Below are positions 37,829 to 45,994 of a stretch of DNA of 64,000 bases, piece after piece (position 1 is the stretch's first letter; the number at the start of each line of letters is the position of its first letter). Under the pieces are notes generated by a model. It saw only the letters and a list, made by a program, of their open reading frames with translations. It did no database searches and was not told the DNA's origin. The position numbers and the translations under genes are program-made. This DNA is from Streptomyces sp. RPT161 (GTDB taxonomy: Bacteria > Actinomycetota > Actinomycetes > Streptomycetales > Streptomycetaceae): contig NZ_JAPZVN010000005.1 in NCBI RefSeq assembly GCF_027533845.1, positions 248,001 through 312,000 on the forward strand, written 5' to 3'.

Positions 37829-38986
37829 TTGGCGGGTTCGACCGATTTCGATCTCTACCAGCTGTCCGAGGAGCACCAGATGCTCCGGGACACGGTGCGC
37901 TCGCTCGCCGAGGCGAAGATCGCCCCGTTCGCGGCCGAGGTGGACGAGCAGGCGCGCTTCCCGCAGGAGGCGCTCGACGCGTTGGCGGGCGCCGACCTGC
38001 ACGCGGTCCACGTGCCCGAGGAGTACGGCGGCGCCGGGGCCGACGCACTGGCCACCGTCCTGGTCATCGAGGAGGTCGCCCGGGTCTGCGCCTCCTCCTC
38101 GCTGATCCCCGCGGTCAACAAGCTCGGCTCGCTGCCGGTCATACTCTCCGGCTCCGAGGACCTGAAGAAGAAGTACCTGGGCCCGCTCGCCAAGGGCGAC
38201 GCGATGTTCTCGTACTGCCTGTCCGAGCCGGACGCCGGTTCCGACGCCGCGGGCATGAAGACCAAGGCGGTGCGCGACGGCGACCACTACGTACTCAACG
38301 GTGTCAAGCGCTGGATCACCAACGCGGGCGTGTCCGAGTACTACACGGTGATGGCCGTCACCGACCCGGAGCAGCGCTCCAAGGGCATCAGTGCCTTCGT
38401 GGTCGAGAAGTCCGACGAGGGCGTCTCCTTCGGCGCCCCCGAGAAGAAGCTCGGCATCAAGGGCTCGCCGACCCGCGAGGTCTACCTCGACAACGTGCGC
38501 ATCCCCGCCGACCGCATGATCGGCGCGGAGGGCACCGGCTTCGCCACCGCGATGAAGACCCTCGACCACACCCGCATCACCATCGCCGCCCAGGCCCTCG
38601 GCATCGCCCAGGGCGCGCTGGACTACGCCAAGGGCTACGTCAAGGAGCGCAAGCAGTTCGGCAAGGCGATCGCCGACTTCCAGGGCATCCAGTTCATGCT
38701 CGCCGACATGGCGATGAAGCTGGAGGCCGCCCGTCAGCTCACCTACGCGGCCGCAGCCAAGTCCGAACGAGTCGACGCCGACCTGACGTTCTTCGGTGCC
38801 GCCGCCAAGTGCTACGCCTCCGACGTCGCGATGGAGATCACCACCGACGCTGTCCAACTCCTCGGCGGCTACGGCTACACCCGTGACTACCCGGTCGAGC
38901 GCATGATGCGCGACGCCAAGATCACCCAGATCTACGAAGGCACGAACCAGGTCCAGCGGATCGTGATGGCGCGCAATCTGCCGTAG
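37829..38986 (+). CDS. Acyl-CoA dehydrogenase
   Basis: A 385-residue FAD-dependent dehydrogenase of beta-oxidation or amino-acid catabolism. Family signatures are FSYCLSEPDAGSDAAGMKT (FAD/substrate region), TLDHTRITIAAQALG, RKQFGKAIADFQGIQFMLADMA and the late QLLGGYGYTRDYPVERMMRDAKI with YEGTNQVQRIVMARNL. The catalytic Glu should be the one in IYEGTNQ, as in short/medium-chain enzymes. It appears to start with TTG (37829) after GGGAG. Upstream lie a TAGAAT -10-like box (37768) and TTACTTAACGGTAGTTAG, possibly an operator. Its last 38 bp form one copy of a perfect duplicated sequence (see repeats), but the protein is complete. Confidence 0.95.
   Translation: MAGSTDFDLYQLSEEHQMLRDTVRSLAEAKIAPFAAEVDEQARFPQEALDALAGADLHAVHVPEEYGGAGADALATVLVIEEVARVCASSSLIPAVNKLGSLPVILSGSEDLKKKYLGPLAKGDAMFSYCLSEPDAGSDAAGMKTKAVRDGDHYVLNGVKRWITNAGVSEYYTVMAVTDPEQRSKGISAFVVEKSDEGVSFGAPEKKLGIKGSPTREVYLDNVRIPADRMIGAEGTGFATAMKTLDHTRITIAAQALGIAQGALDYAKGYVKERKQFGKAIADFQGIQFMLADMAMKLEAARQLTYAAAAKSERVDADLTFFGAAAKCYASDVAMEITTDAVQLLGGYGYTRDYPVERMMRDAKITQIYEGTNQVQRIVMARNLP
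38948..38985 (+). repeat. 38-bp direct repeat, copy 1 (attachment-site candidate, in gene 3' end)
   Basis: The final 38 bp before the last base of the acyl-CoA dehydrogenase stop codon are identical to 39729-39766. A target in the 3' end of a conserved gene, regenerated on integration, is typical of tyrosine-recombinase elements. Confidence 0.75.
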
Positions 38987-39138
38987 AGCGGTCTCCGCAG
39001 GTCAGCGGCCTCTTCGGCCGTCCGCGAGCCGTGATCGGCTTTCGGCCCGTTCGGGTCTGCTTCGGGCCGGTCACGGGCGTCATGCTGGGGAAGTCCTGGG
39101 CTGACGCCGGGCGGGGCCGCTTCTGACCGCACAAACAC
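38987..39138. other. Non-coding DNA inside the scar between the direct repeats
   Basis: No coding signal is visible between the dehydrogenase stop and the hairpin at 39139. The segment is part of the 781-bp interval bounded by the 38-bp repeats and may be residual element DNA. Confidence 0.4.
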
Positions 39139-39171
39139 AACGGCCCCCCGGCACTGTGCCGGGGGGCCGTT
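39139..39171. terminator. Strong hairpin terminator
   Basis: 16-nt arms (39139-39154 and 39156-39171) are perfectly complementary around one base, giving at least 14 effective pairs. It would end dehydrogenase transcription. Confidence 0.75.
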
Positions 39172-39374
39172 CGTATGGGTTCTGTCAGGCGACTTCCGTC
39201 TGGCGGGGCGTTCGTTTGACGGTACGAGAGCGGGTGGTCACTCGTCCTCAGGCGGGACGATGGACCCCGCGTTGGCCCGGCACCCGGTTTCTCGTCTTGA
39301 CGGGCCTGCTCCGCGTCCACGCGTTCCCCTTCCGGTACCGAAGGTCAGCAGACTACTGGCCGCCCTCACCACTC

Positions 39375-39710
39375 CCACCCGAACTGGAGGAGTCGGTGTT
39401 GCGGTACCGGCTGTGCAGCGCCGAAACCAGGGCGGCACAGCTCGGCCACTTGCTCGGGGTCATGGACCTTCAGAACGTCGCCTTGGGCATCGTCCCGTTC
39501 TCGGCACAGCGGAACGTGTGGCCCATGCCGACCTTCACGATCTTCGATGACGGCAGGGTGCACGCGGACACGCTGGACGCTGCTTCCACGCTCACACAGC
39601 CCAGCCAGGTGGAGCTGTACTCCCGAGCCTTTGAGCGGCTCTCACAGGGGGCCGCGCGGGGAGCGGCAGCGCGTTCCCTGATAGCGGATGCGGTGGCATC
39701 CCTGAAGTGA
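39375..39710 (+). pseudogene. Fragment of an XRE-family regulator (C-terminal DUF5753 only)
   Basis: About 110 codons match the last part of a DUF5753 domain: EESVLRYRLCSAETRAAQLG, LGIVPFSAQRNVWPMPTFTI and the terminal ARGAAARSLIADAVASLK. The helix-turn-helix and the first two thirds of DUF5753 are missing; DNA upstream is unrelated and includes the hairpin at 39139. It lies between the two 38-bp repeats and looks like debris of an integrated element. Confidence 0.75.
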
Positions 39711-39728: not shown

Positions 39729-39766
39729 CAGGTCCAGCGGATCGTGATGGCGCGCAATCTGCCGTA
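39729..39766 (+). repeat. 38-bp direct repeat, copy 2 (attachment-site candidate)
   Basis: Identical over 38 bp to 38948-38985; bases just outside differ on both sides. The copies are 781 bp apart in the same orientation. Confidence 0.75.
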
Positions 39767-39784
39767 AGGCGGCACGCTATGTCA

Positions 39785-39812
39785 CGGTGCCCCCGCCTCG
39801 GCGGGGGCACCG
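39785..39812. terminator. Hairpin terminator
   Basis: A 13-bp perfect stem (39785-39797 with 39800-39812) just past the stop codon of the minus-strand methyltransferase gene, ending its operon. Confidence 0.7.
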
Positions 39813-39818
39813 CCGTCT

Positions 39819-40907
39819 TCACCGGATGGTGTTCCGTGGCTCGTCCAGCCACACCTGCTGCCCCTGTGCGCCCACCGTCAGTCCGAACCGGGAGCGCTCC
39901 GGGCGGCCCAGCGCCTTCCAACGCCGGTGGGCCCATAGGTTTCGGGGGCCGAACTGTTCCGTGCCGTAGGCCGGTTGGCCCGGTGCGTACTCGATCGTGG
40001 CCCATGACCGCTTGTCGTTCGCCAGCAGCCACAAGGTGGCCTCATCGCTACCGTCGTCGGCGTTGCACCACACGAGCGAGGCATGGGGGAGATGCAGGCT
40101 GGCGAAGAACAGGGCGTCGTCCTGAACAAGTTCGCGCGGATCCGCGTCCGAGCTGTCCGTCCGCCCCTTCTCACCGTGGTGCACGTCCTCGATGGCGTGG
40201 TGCACGTCCCGGTGCTGGCGGGCGAACATGAACGCCGGATTCCCCGAGAACGCCCCCTGCGCCGTGCCCTTCGCGACGTCCAGGGTCGCGAAGGAGCCGG
40301 AGAAGAAGCTGTTGCCCCACGGCGCGACGATCTTGGCCCCCGGTTCGGCCTGCTCGACCCAGGCGTACGGGATCTCGCGCACGGTGCAGGCGGCCAGGAT
40401 GCCGCCGCTGTATGGCGCTTGGTCCCGGCAGCCGTTGAGCCCGTCTCCGATCACCACGTGCGGGGTGAAGCCCGCCGCGGCCAGGTTCTTGATCGCCTGC
40501 CTGGCCACGGCCTCGTCGTACTCGACGGTCGTCACCCGCTCGTCACCGAGCCGGTGGCACAGCCACGCCGCGTTGTAGCCGGTGCCCGTGCCGATCTCCA
40601 GCACGCTGCGGTTCGCATCGACCTTCAGCAGGTCGAGCATCTCCAGCATGATCGACGGCTTCGAACTGGACGAGGTGGGGAGCGCGTTCCCTTCCCAGTC
40701 CTGTGTTCCGTCGTTGACCTGCGTGACGATCGGCAGGTCACCGTAGACGATGCGGCGCCACCGCTGCGGGTCCGTGGACTTGTCCACGTTCCCGAAGACC
40801 TCGGGAATGAACAGCCCCCGGTCCACGGAGGCCACGGCGTCCCGCCACTCCGGGGGCAGCGCACCTTTGTTGTGCAGCATCTCCACGAGCCGCTGAGGCG
40901 TGCTCAC
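39819..40907 (-). CDS. PIMT-like (protein-L-isoaspartate O-methyltransferase family) methyltransferase
   Basis: A 362-residue S-adenosylmethionine-dependent methyltransferase. The PCMT-type core (about 1-215) has the SAM motif SVLEIGTGTGYNAAWLC, VTTVEYDEAVARQA and the DGLNGC/ILAACTVREIPYAW region. A C-terminal extension of about 145 residues follows, absent from the 210-residue repair enzyme. Extended PIMT homologues occur in RiPP clusters, where they methylate an Asp side chain and drive aspartimide formation. Here it ends an operon with very small ORFs immediately upstream. The GTG at 40907 follows a GAGGTGA-like site. Protein repair is the conservative alternative. Confidence 0.85.
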   Translation of the reverse strand: MSTPQRLVEMLHNKGALPPEWRDAVASVDRGLFIPEVFGNVDKSTDPQRWRRIVYGDLPIVTQVNDGTQDWEGNALPTSSSSKPSIMLEMLDLLKVDANRSVLEIGTGTGYNAAWLCHRLGDERVTTVEYDEAVARQAIKNLAAAGFTPHVVIGDGLNGCRDQAPYSGGILAACTVREIPYAWVEQAEPGAKIVAPWGNSFFSGSFATLDVAKGTAQGAFSGNPAFMFARQHRDVHHAIEDVHHGEKGRTDSSDADPRELVQDDALFFASLHLPHASLVWCNADDGSDEATLWLLANDKRSWATIEYAPGQPAYGTEQFGPRNLWAHRRWKALGRPERSRFGLTVGAQGQQVWLDEPRNTIR

Positions 40908-40914
40908 CGTCACC

Positions 40915-41022
40915 TCACTTCTGGTCGGGCTTGGGAAGATTCGTCGGGGGCCGCTCACGGTGCCCGTCCTGCGGCGCGGTGTCGGGCTTGCCGGAGTGCT
41001 TGCCGCCTTTGTCGTCGCCCAT
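40915..41022 (-). CDS. Small ORF, 35 residues, upstream of the methyltransferase
   Basis: The peptide begins MGDDKGGKHSGKPD and ends NLPKPDQK. It is hydrophilic and rich in Asp, Lys, Gly and Pro, without Cys or membrane segment. It contains an Asp-Gly (QDGHRE) and an Asp-Thr, residues prone to aspartimide formation. It starts 3 nt after the stop of the preceding small ORF and ends 7 nt before the methyltransferase GTG, so it is in an operon with them. A GGGG purine stretch lies about 8 nt upstream of the start. It may be the methyltransferase substrate; this is inference. Confidence 0.5.
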   Translation of the reverse strand: MGDDKGGKHSGKPDTAPQDGHRERPPTNLPKPDQK

Positions 41023-41025
41023 GTC

Positions 41026-41142
41026 TCAATGCCCCTTTGCGGTGTGTCGTTTGGTGGGGATCGGCTGAGGGTCTGGTCCGGGCCGGGGGCCGGTGGGGGT
41101 GGCCATGGCGATTGCCCCCTTGTAGGTCGGCATCTCAACCAT
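41026..41142 (-). CDS. Small ORF, 38 residues, Pro-rich
   Basis: It encodes MVEMPTYKGAIAMATPTGPR, then PGPDPQPIPT and a basic end KRHTAKGH. Its ATG overlaps the stop region of the small Cys-motif ORF upstream and its stop is 3 nt before the next ATG, the tight packing expected of genuine small genes. No family recognised. It could be a precursor or accessory peptide of the operon. Confidence 0.45.
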   Translation of the reverse strand: MVEMPTYKGAIAMATPTGPRPGPDPQPIPTKRHTAKGH

Positions 41143-41298
41143 TGCGGGACACCTCCAGCCGGTGGGCGTCATCGCGGTGCCTGCGGGTCAGGACGCGGAC
41201 ATCGGTCTCCTGGCTCTTGTCCTTCGCCGCCTTGGCCGCCATCAGCCGCATCGCCAGTGTTCGGCACTCCGGGCAAGTTGGGTTTTCCGTGCGGCCAT
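41135..41298 (-). pseudogene. Small CxxC-type protein, apparently frameshifted near its start
   Basis: An open frame reads TCPECRTLAMRLMAAKAAKD, then QETDVRVLTRRHRDDAH. This resembles small Streptomyces proteins that accompany XRE-DUF5753 regulators and begin with a CxxC near the N terminus. No start codon precedes the Cys pair in this frame. An ATG at 41298 is out of frame by one base. Adding one A to the AAAA run just after it would fuse the two (M-A-A-R-K-N-P-T-C). So there is either a one-base deletion, a sequencing error, or a shorter protein from the ATG at 41251. Confidence 0.45.
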
Positions 41299-41323
41299 GC
41301 TGTGGTTTTCGCGTGGCGAAGGG

Positions 41324-42154
41324 CTAGCCCGTTTCCTGTTCCCCCAACAATTCATCGCGGATGCCTGCGACCATCGCCCGCACGTCCTGGCCCGCAACGG
41401 CTATTTGTTCGAAGCCTTCGAACTTCTTCACATACAGGGCTATGTCGCGTGGGTCGGTGACGACGACCTCTGCGTGCACGGTCTCCACCGTTACCAAACG
41501 GTTGTCCCTGATGACGAAGGAATGCGCCGGGAAGTCATTTTGTGGCGTTGACAACGGCACGACACGGATGTCGATGTTGGAGAGGCGGGAGACCGCGATG
41601 AGCCGGTCAAGTTGCAGTGCCAGCACGGCTGGAGGGACGATGCGCCATCGCAGAACGGGTTCAGTGATGATGAACCGGAACGTCTTGGACGTGTCATAGA
41701 GGACGCTCTGGCGTGCAAGGCGTGCGCCAATGACGCGAGATAGTTGGTCCTTTTCGAGGCCTTTGCGGTTCCAGACCGCCCGAACGTACTCAGGCGTCTG
41801 GAGAAGTCCCGGGACCAGGGAAGGCTGAAACAGCCTCAGCAGGCTTGTCCTTGATTCGAGTGCCTGGATCTGCTGCTGCTTGCGGTGGAACCCCAGACGA
41901 CGGTAGAGACGCCATGCCACCGCCTCGGTGGCTGCCGCCCGGGCCGCGGCCATGTACTCGGACCTGACGGATTCCGACACTCCCAGGGCCGTGAGGATCT
42001 GCTCGACGTCAACCACGCTGGGCGCCATGTTGCCGGTCTCGATCTTGCTGAGCTTGGACCTGGACATGGCCGCGCTGCGGGCGACGGTCTTGGCCTCCAG
42101 GCCGGAGGCCTCCCGCAACGTCCGCAGCGCGGTGCCCAGTTCGGATCGGTTCAC
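41324..42154 (-). CDS. XRE-family regulator with DUF5753
   Basis: A 276-residue DNA-binding protein. The N-terminal helix-turn-helix (about 5-62) reads LGTALRTLREASGLEAKTVA and SRSKLSKIETGNMAPS. The DUF5753 domain (about 95-270) has LFQPSLVPGLLQTPEYVRAV and LQLDRLIAVSRLSNIDIRVV. In Streptomyces such proteins regulate adjacent small-protein genes. The GTG at 42154 overlaps the DUF6879 stop by 4 bp. It is the third gene of the accessory operon and a probable autoregulator. Confidence 0.9.
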   Translation of the reverse strand: MNRSELGTALRTLREASGLEAKTVARSAAMSRSKLSKIETGNMAPSVVDVEQILTALGVSESVRSEYMAAARAAATEAVAWRLYRRLGFHRKQQQIQALESRTSLLRLFQPSLVPGLLQTPEYVRAVWNRKGLEKDQLSRVIGARLARQSVLYDTSKTFRFIITEPVLRWRIVPPAVLALQLDRLIAVSRLSNIDIRVVPLSTPQNDFPAHSFVIRDNRLVTVETVHAEVVVTDPRDIALYVKKFEGFEQIAVAGQDVRAMVAGIRDELLGEQETG

Positions 42155-42675
42155 TCGCCGTGCTTCGACCACCACTGCGGGAATGGTTCGGCGTGCGCCA
42201 GCGCCGTGTCCCGGTACGTCTTGAAATCGGTGAGCCTGTCGGCTCCCAGGAATTCGGCGCCCAGGAACTTACCGTTTCCGTCGTAGTTCATGGCACTGAT
42301 CACTTGGTTGTCGAACAGCCAGAAGTCGGGAGCTTCGGGGATGGGATTCTCCTGTTCGGTGATGTCGAGGATGAAGAACTCCTCGCCCACCGCCATGTTG
42401 CGTTGGTAACCCCAACCGAATTCAAACCGCAGGTAGTCCGTGAGCGGCCGGGACACGATGTGTACCCGGTACACCCGCCTTCCGGCCCGCGTGGCGTTGC
42501 GTACCGTCGTCACCCAGTCCGACGACTTGAACTCCTCCGGTTGCTCCTGGCCAGCGAGGAAGGCGTGGTAGGCGTCGACGCTGCCTGACCGGCTGTAGTC
42601 GTCGAGGGTTTCCAGTCGGAACGCCTCCTGCTCGAACTCCGAGAACGACTTGCTCAGAGTCCTAGATGAGGTCAT
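42151..42675 (-). CDS. DUF6879-family protein
   Basis: A 174-residue soluble protein starting MTSSRTLSKSFSEFEQEAFR. Typical DUF6879 features are FEQEAFRLETLDDYSRSG, RVYRVHIVSRPLTDYLRFEF and DFWLFDNQ, with many aromatics. The family is almost always found beside XRE-DUF5753 regulators in Streptomyces; its function is unknown. It overlaps the regulator gene by 4 bp and the small upstream gene by 14 bp, so the three are coupled. Confidence 0.85.
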   Translation of the reverse strand: MTSSRTLSKSFSEFEQEAFRLETLDDYSRSGSVDAYHAFLAGQEQPEEFKSSDWVTTVRNATRAGRRVYRVHIVSRPLTDYLRFEFGWGYQRNMAVGEEFFILDITEQENPIPEAPDFWLFDNQVISAMNYDGNGKFLGAEFLGADRLTDFKTYRDTALAHAEPFPQWWSKHGE

Positions 42676-42859
42676 CGCGGGCGGCCTTTCGGATGAGGTC
42701 GACAGGAATTTCGACCAGCGTCTCGTGCGGCGAAACAATCAGACCGTGGTCGGCTATCCGTTCTCCCTGGATGGCGAGCGTTCCCCGGTCGGTGCGGTAA
42801 ATGGTGGGGCAGTCGCCCTCTTCGCACTCACCTACGAGTCGTGTCAGCTTCACGGCCAC
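42662..42859 (-). CDS. Small conserved-type protein beside DUF6879
   Basis: A 65-residue protein (GTG start after CGGAGGG) with a CEEGDC Cys pair and TIYRTDRGTLAIQGERI, followed by an acidic C-terminal helix. It is the promoter-proximal gene of the accessory operon and overlaps DUF6879 by 14 bp. I recall similar small proteins in the same position in other Streptomyces, without a known function. Confidence 0.75.
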   Translation of the reverse strand: MAVKLTRLVGECEEGDCPTIYRTDRGTLAIQGERIADHGLIVSPHETLVEIPVDLIRKAARDDLI

Positions 42860-42934: not shown

Positions 42935-42958
42935 CCGGTTTCTGGAACTGGAAACCGG
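42935..42958. promoter_or_regulatory. Inverted-repeat operator candidate upstream of the accessory operon
   Basis: CCGGTTT (42935-42941) and AAACCGG (42952-42958) flank 10 bp. A minus-strand promoter-like pair TTGTCC-N18-GACGAT lies between it and the first gene. It is a likely site for the XRE protein. Confidence 0.4.
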
Positions 42959-42991
42959 CGACGGCCCCCGGCGCAGTGCCGGGGGCCGTCG
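42959..42991. terminator. Terminator of the LCP gene
   Basis: A perfect 14-bp stem (42959-42972 with 42978-42991) and a 5-nt loop, 26 bp past the LCP stop. It separates that gene from the accessory operon read in the same direction. Confidence 0.75.
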
Positions 42992-43016
42992 CATCAAGTG
43001 GGCGCGTCGAGTGGCG

Positions 43017-44384: not shown

Positions 44385-44825
44385 CTACGCACCGTGAGTG
44401 TCTTCCGGGAACGCGTTCAGCACGAACCACACCTCCTTACCGGCCCCCTTCACCTCGAACCCCCAGGCGTTCGCGGTCTCGCTCAACAGGAACAGCCCGC
44501 GCCCCCGCTCCGACATGTGGTCCGGCTCCCGCATCACCGGTGGGGACGGCTCGGTGTCGCGCACCGAAACCCGAATGCCCTGCGCTATACGGCGCAGCTC
44601 CAGCGCGCATTCCGGGTTCGCCGTGTGCTTGTGGACGTTGCTCAGCAACTCCGTCACGCACATCGCCGCCGCGGGCCGCAGGTCCTCCAGGCCCCACTCG
44701 CGCAGCCGCGCACCGACGAAACGCCGCACAGCGGCCAACACGTGCGGCTCCGCACGCAGCATCAACTGGCATCCCGCACCGCTTACTTGAGCGGGGACCG
44801 CGATCGGGGGAACTTCCGGCTTCAT
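44385..44825 (-). CDS. HATPase_c_2 serine-kinase/anti-sigma-like ATP-binding protein
   Basis: A 146-residue GHKL domain with the N-box VTELLSNVHKHT and the G-box ERGRGLFLLSETANAWG. It belongs to the large Streptomyces set of stand-alone RsbW-like ATP-binding proteins, often placed next to XRE-DUF5753 and DUF397 genes, as here. The kinase or anti-sigma partner is not encoded nearby. It is divergent from the XRE gene (105 bp between starts). Confidence 0.87.
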   Translation of the reverse strand: MKPEVPPIAVPAQVSGAGCQLMLRAEPHVLAAVRRFVGARLREWGLEDLRPAAAMCVTELLSNVHKHTANPECALELRRIAQGIRVSVRDTEPSPPVMREPDHMSERGRGLFLLSETANAWGFEVKGAGKEVWFVLNAFPEDTHGA

Positions 44826-44930
44826 GACCTCAACGATTCTCGCCTGGGACTACCGTGACCAGCCCGACAGACGGTACGGCTAGTTAGTGCGGTTACCCGC
44901 TGGGGCGGGGCGGAGGAGGGGCGGTGCGGG

Positions 44931-45743
44931 ATGGACGAACATGACGGCACGCCGGTTGGGTTGCTGATCTTCGGCTGCCAGCAGCGGGCGCTGCGGGAGC
45001 GGGCGGGGCTCACCCAGGCGGAGTTGGCCAGCAGGGTCAACTACTCGGAATCGCATGTCCGGTCGGTTGAGAGTGGGCGACGGCGCCCAAAGCCCGAGTA
45101 TGTTCGGGCCGTTGACGAGGCGCTGGGCGCCCAGGGCCTGTTGAAGGCTGCGGCTGAGCCGATCATGCAGCTGAAGTATCCGGCGTGGTTCATCCGGTAC
45201 GTCGAGGCTGAGGCCGAGGCCGTCAAGCTCTACGCGTATGACGCGAACGTGTTGAACGGCCTGCACCAAACGGAGGATTACGCGCGAGCTGTCCTCAGTG
45301 CTCACGTTCCGATGCTCGACGAGTCGGAGGTTGAGCGGCTCGTACAGGGACGACTTGAGCGCCAAACCCTGTTCACCCGCAAGCCGGCACCCACGCTCGG
45401 CTTCGTGATCGAGGAGTGGTTGCTACGACGTCCCGTCGGTGGCCGTGCAGTGATGAAGGCGCAGCTTCAACGACTGCTTGAGGTCGGCGAGATGCGTAAC
45501 GTCTCGATCCAGGTCCTGCCGATGGCATGCGAGTCGCACGCCGGGTTCGACGGGCCGCTGACGCTGCTGGAGACGCCAGAAGGGCGCAACGTGGGGTACG
45601 TCGAAGGGCAGGCCGGGAGTACCTTCGTCACCAAGTCGAACGAACTCACTGTGCTCGAACAGCGATATGGCACGCTGCGGGCGCAAGCCCTCAGTACGGG
45701 GGAGTCCGCGAGCCTTATCGACCGCTTGGCAGGAGAGCTATGA
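44931..45743 (+). CDS. XRE-family regulator with DUF5753
   Basis: A 270-residue protein with an N-terminal helix-turn-helix (QRALRERAGLTQAELASRV, SESHVRSVESGRRRP) and DUF5753 (about 95-265; LNGLHQTEDYARAVL, VLPMACESHAGFDGPLTLLE). The ATG at 44931 follows GGCGGAGGAGGGG. Its stop overlaps the DUF397 gene start (ATGA). With the divergent ATP-binding protein this forms the common Streptomyces three-gene set whose members resemble the AbaA/WhiJ-type regulatory loci. Confidence 0.92.
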   Translation: MDEHDGTPVGLLIFGCQQRALRERAGLTQAELASRVNYSESHVRSVESGRRRPKPEYVRAVDEALGAQGLLKAAAEPIMQLKYPAWFIRYVEAEAEAVKLYAYDANVLNGLHQTEDYARAVLSAHVPMLDESEVERLVQGRLERQTLFTRKPAPTLGFVIEEWLLRRPVGGRAVMKAQLQRLLEVGEMRNVSIQVLPMACESHAGFDGPLTLLETPEGRNVGYVEGQAGSTFVTKSNELTVLEQRYGTLRAQALSTGESASLIDRLAGEL

Positions 45744-45994
45744 GTACCGCCAACCTCGCGTGGTTCAAGAGCAGTTACAGCGGAAGCGACGCCGGGGAAT
45801 GCATAGAAGTCGCCTTCGATTGGCGTAAGTCCAGCTACAGCGGCAGTAACGGCGGCCAGTGCATTGAGGTCGCCACCTGTCCCACCGCCGTCCACGTACG
45901 GGATTCCAAGGACCCCGAAGGTCCGGCCCTCGCCTTCACTCCCACCGAGTGGTCCGCCTTCCTCCGGCTTGCCGTCTCCGTGGGGAACTCGTAA
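45740..45994 (+). CDS. DUF397 protein with tandemly duplicated motif
   Basis: An 84-residue protein. The usual DUF397 opening motif appears twice: WFKSSYSGSDAGECIEVA and WRKSSYSGSNGGQCIEVA, 21 residues apart. It then continues with VHVRDSKDPEGPALAFTPTEW as normal. Most DUF397 proteins have one copy and about 60-65 residues. It overlaps the XRE gene by 4 bp and is its expected partner; such small proteins modulate the regulator. A hairpin at 46006 ends the pair. Confidence 0.9.
   Translation: MSTANLAWFKSSYSGSDAGECIEVAFDWRKSSYSGSNGGQCIEVATCPTAVHVRDSKDPEGPALAFTPTEWSAFLRLAVSVGNS

Follow-up and report, generated by a model that had tools for sequence, protein, structure and literature searches.

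What an extended PIMT homologue does at the end of a compact operon of regulatory and very small genes is the question raised by a stretch of Streptomyces sp. RPT161 DNA of 64,000 nucleotides, hereafter called the window. The answer proposed here is that the operon is very probably a type I pamtide (imiditide) locus, in which a 35-aa peptide would be modified by the PIMT-like enzyme. Imiditides, or type I pamtides, have already been described (PMC10787088, PMC13001092), and what the original prediction held to be its best candidate for an undescribed system instead adds a new member to a class known since 2023, because the length and composition of the precursor match those of type I pamtides. 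Over a thousand loci of this class have been predicted and their biological role is not known. The present locus offers a sharp, testable substrate with one predicted Asp, a recurrent regulator module and a candidate operator; the last two may help to find when pamtides are made and what they do.

All seven features reported earlier are found on the minus strand, from 42859 to 39819 (Table 1), and neighbouring genes overlap or sit a few bases apart, which bears out the description of tightly packed genes ending in an extended PIMT homologue. The strong hairpin just 3' of the methyltransferase gene is the probable end of the operon, and is a hairpin without a T-run, as the T-run scan gave no call there. 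A methyltransferase start at 41138 was rejected as over-extended, with homology beginning at about 40907. Family models assign the enzyme, the XRE regulator and the DUF6879 protein clearly, and match none of the small ORFs. Among the operon and eight neighbours scanned with Pfam there were no genes for ATP-grasp, LanB/C, lasso or radical SAM proteins, and the operon itself shows no gene for a transporter or protease, in agreement with the earlier statement that cyclase, ATP-grasp and protease genes are missing.

Table 1. Features of the operon and its flanks, in positions of the window
Feature	Position	Strand	Remarks
Strong hairpin ending preceding LytR-family gene	42958..42992	-	-38.4 kcal/mol (folded stretch), z -5.6
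Candidate operator palindrome GGTTTCCAGTTCCAGAAACC	42937..42956	-	before operon; 28 of 38 positions shared with G032 locus
65-aa ORF	42662..42859	-	first operon gene; conserved small protein
DUF6879 protein	42151..42675	-	PF21806 7.9e-45
XRE regulator with DUF5753 (WhiJ/Scr1 type)	41324..42175	-	PF19054 4.3e-40, PF13560 9.2e-16
62-codon open frame (CPEC, TRRH motifs)	41135..41323	-	encloses 38-aa ORF
Possible second small peptide MVEMPTYKGAIAMATPTGPRPGPDPQPIPTKRHTAKGH	41026..41142	-	ATG at 41142; listed 48-codon ORF begins 41172
Predicted precursor peptide MGDDKGGKHSGKPDTAPQDGHRERPPTNLPKPDQK, 35 codons	40915..41022	-	homologues adjoin PAMTs
Asp19-Gly20 codons, predicted modification site	40963..40968	-	invariant in nine aligned precursors
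PAMT-type methyltransferase, 362 aa, GTG start	39819..40907	-	PF01135 (PCMT) 2.5e-25; TIGR04188 full length
Strong hairpin just 3' of methyltransferase	39784..39813	-	-32.8 kcal/mol (folded stretch), z -5.7

The proposed substrate is encoded directly before the methyltransferase gene, by an ORF that had been singled out as Asp-rich and as containing Asp-Gly; indeed, five of its 35 residues are Asp (14.3%), with a single Asp-Gly. The peptide has no Cys, contains 17.1% Pro, 14.3% Gly and 14.3% Lys, and has, as judged by eye, an acidic N-terminal end (GDDK...) and a basic C-terminal one (...KPDQK). Published type I pamtide precursors have about 45 aa, with 17.3% Gly, 16.8% Pro and 10.2% Asp. When 199 genomes were searched with this ORF, four non-self matches, in as many genomes, were obtained with E-values from 7.7e-10 to 7.5e-7, the next one standing at 0.013, and a fifth relative was found in Streptomyces sp. 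ISL-94 (L031). All five relatives (L031, L073, L074, L075 and L076) belong to other species and have a PAMT gene at most about 0.4 kb downstream on the same strand, so that the 35-aa ORF passes the check, proposed with the original prediction, of conservation beside orthologous methyltransferases. They share the motif [G/K]HSG[K/R/T]PDTA-x-x-D-G with the window peptide, and over the 19 codons aligned with L031 there are 8 synonymous versus 3 nonsynonymous changes. On such sequence grounds, this is more than a chance ORF. In more distant relatives (G001, G028 and others) the Asp-Gly is kept and PDTA is lost, and in an alignment of nine precursors Met1, Asp19, Gly20 and Pro30 are invariant. Asp14, within PDTA, is likewise conserved among the closest precursors, and Asp19 is therefore not the sole candidate site.

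The other small frames between the regulator and the methyltransferase fare less uniformly. Of the three announced there, those of 35 and 48 codons are present and the third, of 38 residues, turns out to be no more than the C-terminal portion of a longer frame. A single clear relative of the 48-codon ORF is found, in G001 (L037); the two have GPRPGPDPxPIP in common and 12 codons conserved at the protein level, and their differences fall 1/1/8 on the first, second and third codon positions. This suggests that the ORF is coding over the short stretch concerned, and it may be a second peptide. In a rival reading, the enzyme would modify the 48-codon peptide, either by itself or along with the 35-aa one, and different second Pro-rich small ORFs at other PAMT loci (L038, L139) are in keeping with a two-peptide operon. 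Such modification is unlikely, as the 48-codon ORF has no Asp-Gly, its other matches are few and weak, and it does not adjoin the gene for the enzyme. As a separate observation, two different PAMT genes in G001 (L038 and L039) are preceded by a small ORF MADPKGPKQPDD[LM]PTRTPARPPK, in one case alongside an Asp-Gly precursor. The 62-codon frame has relatives in 8 of 61 genomes; it has no in-frame ATG, GTG or TTG before CPEC, the ATG being in another frame, and is for this reason probably a frame-damaged gene for a small CxxC protein. The 38-residue ORF, once suggested as a second precursor, had to be abandoned in that role, being the tail of this conserved CxxC frame and lacking precursor composition.

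The head of the operon is also conserved. The 65-aa protein has a 70% identical relative at the same position in G032 (L052) and 44% identical ones in L074 and L122, and the order 65-aa protein, DUF6879, XRE, precursor and PAMT recurs in L074, whose precursor is of the same family as the window peptide, and in L052, whose precursor belongs to another family. Around 68 PAMT matches, DUF6879 is encoded upstream on the same strand in 10 cases, upstream on the opposite strand in 3 and downstream in none. Conversely, among about 163 DUF6879 matches in 62 genomes, a comparison of lists by hand gave at least 15 situated upstream of a PAMT at a distance of 3 kb or less, versus about 0.3 expected by chance from about 303 PAMT-like matches in about 490 Mb. 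DUF6879 was rejected as a PAMT-specific marker, because an XRE gene directly follows DUF6879 in 17 of 20 loci sampled elsewhere, almost always with no PAMT adjacent. Other neighbours of the DUF6879-XRE module, recognised by eye, are an ORF resembling an ATP-grasp ligase (L143, together with a divergent PAMT) and an ORF resembling a radical SAM protein (L148). In the open-access literature searched, no paper on DUF6879 was found, nor any link between the DUF6879-XRE pair and the pamtide class.

The palindrome GGTTTCCAGTTCCAGAAACC occurs once in the window, between the upstream hairpin and the first gene. The G032 locus has GGTTTCCCGTTGTGGAAACC at the equivalent place and an XRE with 70% identity; the best match over 38 bases is 28, with at most 23 reached in 200 shuffles, for a conservation that rests on two loci. 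No such palindrome is present in L074, L122 or L038, whose XREs are more distant. The recurrence of the module upstream of PAMTs, together with the conserved palindrome, suggests that the operon is autoregulated at the candidate site 42937-42956. WhiJ9 is known to bind DNA near its own gene, and antibiotic production is regulated by XRE-DUF397 pairs, whose XRE is of a related type and which show no toxin-antitoxin behaviour. It could further be imagined that the 35-aa (or 48-codon) peptide, in aspartimide or isoaspartate form, is an internal signal acting on the co-transcribed XRE/DUF6879 pair, making the operon a peptide-switched regulator and not a route to a secreted product, for which the lack of a visible transporter or protease gene would speak. 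Such a role is quite improbable: the 70% identical XRE of G032 goes with a precursor of another family, which means that inheritance of regulator and peptide is not strictly coupled.

In the enzyme itself, the SSxSxP loop (S79-P84), the SAM motif EIGTGTG and, in a C-terminal extension, WKALGRP (WxxxGxP, W330-P336) can be recognised; according to a review of aspartimide RiPPs, WxxxGxP is common to lasso, graspetide and imiditide enzymes. The model TIGR04188 (ATP-grasp peptide maturase system methyltransferase) spans residues 7-352 and scores 300 bits, short of the curated 380 required, and is also matched by all 22 homologues of the enzyme. Across these 23 aligned enzymes the SSxSxP loop and W330 and P336 of WxxxGxP are invariant columns. 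The window enzyme is the only one among them without five residues just before the conserved Trp330, a gap that might lower its activity; its 55% identical relative in G001 has these residues. The PIMT core is matched up to about residue 200-230, followed by the extension of about 100 aa or more by which type I pamtide enzymes are defined. The closest solved folds in a structure profile search are PIMTs (1DL5 at 2.8e-32, core only). The AlphaFold model, made from three sequences only, is of low confidence (mean pLDDT 49.6) and too poor for a fold search.

Membership of the PIMT superfamily, and the fact that 3653 of 9408 extended PIMTs have no assigned substrate, would also fit an ordinary repair enzyme, or one acting on a protein encoded elsewhere, with the small ORF as a coincidental neighbour. 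This is very improbable in view of the full-length TIGR04188 match, the extension with WxxxGxP, the several further PAMT-like genes of the host genome, and the way in which the small ORF is kept in sequence and position. In 51 of 66 PAMT loci a Gly/Pro/Asp/Lys-rich small ORF ends near the enzyme start, versus 0/66 on the reverse strand and 0/66 further upstream under the same rule, the best such ORF being taken per locus with a threshold set by the analyst and a choice that favours that composition. These 51 precursors and that of L076 have a mean of 41 aa, with 22.8% Gly, 17.6% Pro and 11.7% Asp, which comes near the values published for type I precursors, although these residues are favoured by the selection rule. 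Asp-Gly-x(1-4)-Pro is present in 46 of the 52, versus 18 ± 3 (maximum 29) in shuffled peptides, and allows the modified residue to be predicted in a simple way. In at least three of the failing loci the neighbouring ORF looks, by eye, like the tail of an ATP-grasp enzyme, which is what one would expect at graspetide loci. A stripped graspetide locus, with an ATP-grasp enzyme encoded elsewhere that cyclises the peptide before methylation, is scarcely credible here: TIGR04188 is named for ATP-grasp systems and at least two host-genome loci (L034, L035) have a small ORF like an ATP-grasp C-terminus just before the PAMT gene, but there is no ATP-grasp gene at the window operon, a general look at the stretches examined gave no sign of one at the five loci of the same precursor family, and type I enzymes act on linear peptides.

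Returning to the type I pamtide assignment, the imiditide-like pairing of an extended PIMT homologue with a 35-aa peptide containing Asp-Gly, put forward in the original prediction, is well supported by the conserved precursor and the PAMT motifs, and we infer the reaction, its site and its products from characterised relatives. The 35-residue peptide would be made by the ribosome, and the enzyme would recognise its linear form through charge and the C-terminal part, without a cyclase being required. The side-chain carboxylate of Asp19 would then be methylated by the PAMT with S-adenosylmethionine as donor, and the backbone nitrogen of Gly20 would attack the methyl ester, with loss of methanol and formation of an aspartimide, which water would later open, mainly to isoaspartate. 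Control of the operon would fall to the XRE regulator, with the DUF6879 and 65-aa proteins, probably acting at the palindrome that immediately precedes it.

Among the known systems, the closest are SpaA-SpaM of Streptomyces sparsogenes and NmaA-NmaM of Nonomuraea maritima, in which an extended PIMT homologue likewise comes after a short Gly/Pro/Asp/Lys-rich peptide. Further features shared with type I pamtides are a conserved Asp close to Gly and Pro, the charged ends, WxxxGxP and the lack of any other RiPP enzyme. On the other hand, the window precursor is shorter than usual (35 aa) and belongs to a subfamily with [GK]HSG-PDTA--DG, SpaA and NmaA having been compared by description only, and the window operon is headed by the 65-aa/DUF6879/XRE module and has a possible second peptide. 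In type II pamtides, or cysimiditides (FcaA-FcaM), enzyme family and proposed reaction are the same, but their precursors need a zinc-binding tetracysteine motif (CxxCxGxG-D-CxxCxGxG), and the 35-aa peptide is without Cys. Group 13 graspetides (graspimiditides) have the same TIGR04188 enzyme family and are reported to co-occur with DUF5753 regulators, groups 11 and 13 reportedly with DUF397-DUF5753 pairs (PMC13097080); unlike them, neither the window operon nor the scanned neighbours have an ATP-grasp ligase. The FxLD lanthipeptide system differs in that its model TIGR04364 scores 84 bits on the enzyme, versus a cut-off of 320, and no LanB or LanC was found among the scanned proteins. The regulator is of the XRE-DUF5753 type found in XRE-DUF397 pairs (WhiJ-BldB, Scr1-Scr2), but its partner is DUF6879, the nearest DUF397 belonging to another XRE (44931-45991). 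A defence system was rejected, since the defence-system scan gave only a weak mad2 match of the SAM-binding part and generic HTH matches; in the viral contigs searched there was no relative of the enzyme.

Finally, some further features of the host and of the window can be mentioned. Another type I pamtide locus is found in the host genome (L033 5000-7135, G000:C96), with the precursor ...LPGQPWTPPAPSPDGGSPDGDGKHRK. Beyond the 3' end of the operon, a 44-base direct repeat (38948-38991 and 39729-39772, 42/44 identical, 781 bases apart) copies the 3' end of an acyl-CoA dehydrogenase gene and flanks a truncated DUF5753 gene (39156-39710), an arrangement suggestive of an integrated element that has decayed and left a scar. 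On the other side, at 44385-45994, a HATPase_c_2 protein, a divergent XRE-DUF5753 and a tandem DUF397 protein make up a further regulator locus, of WhiJ-BldB-AbaA type.
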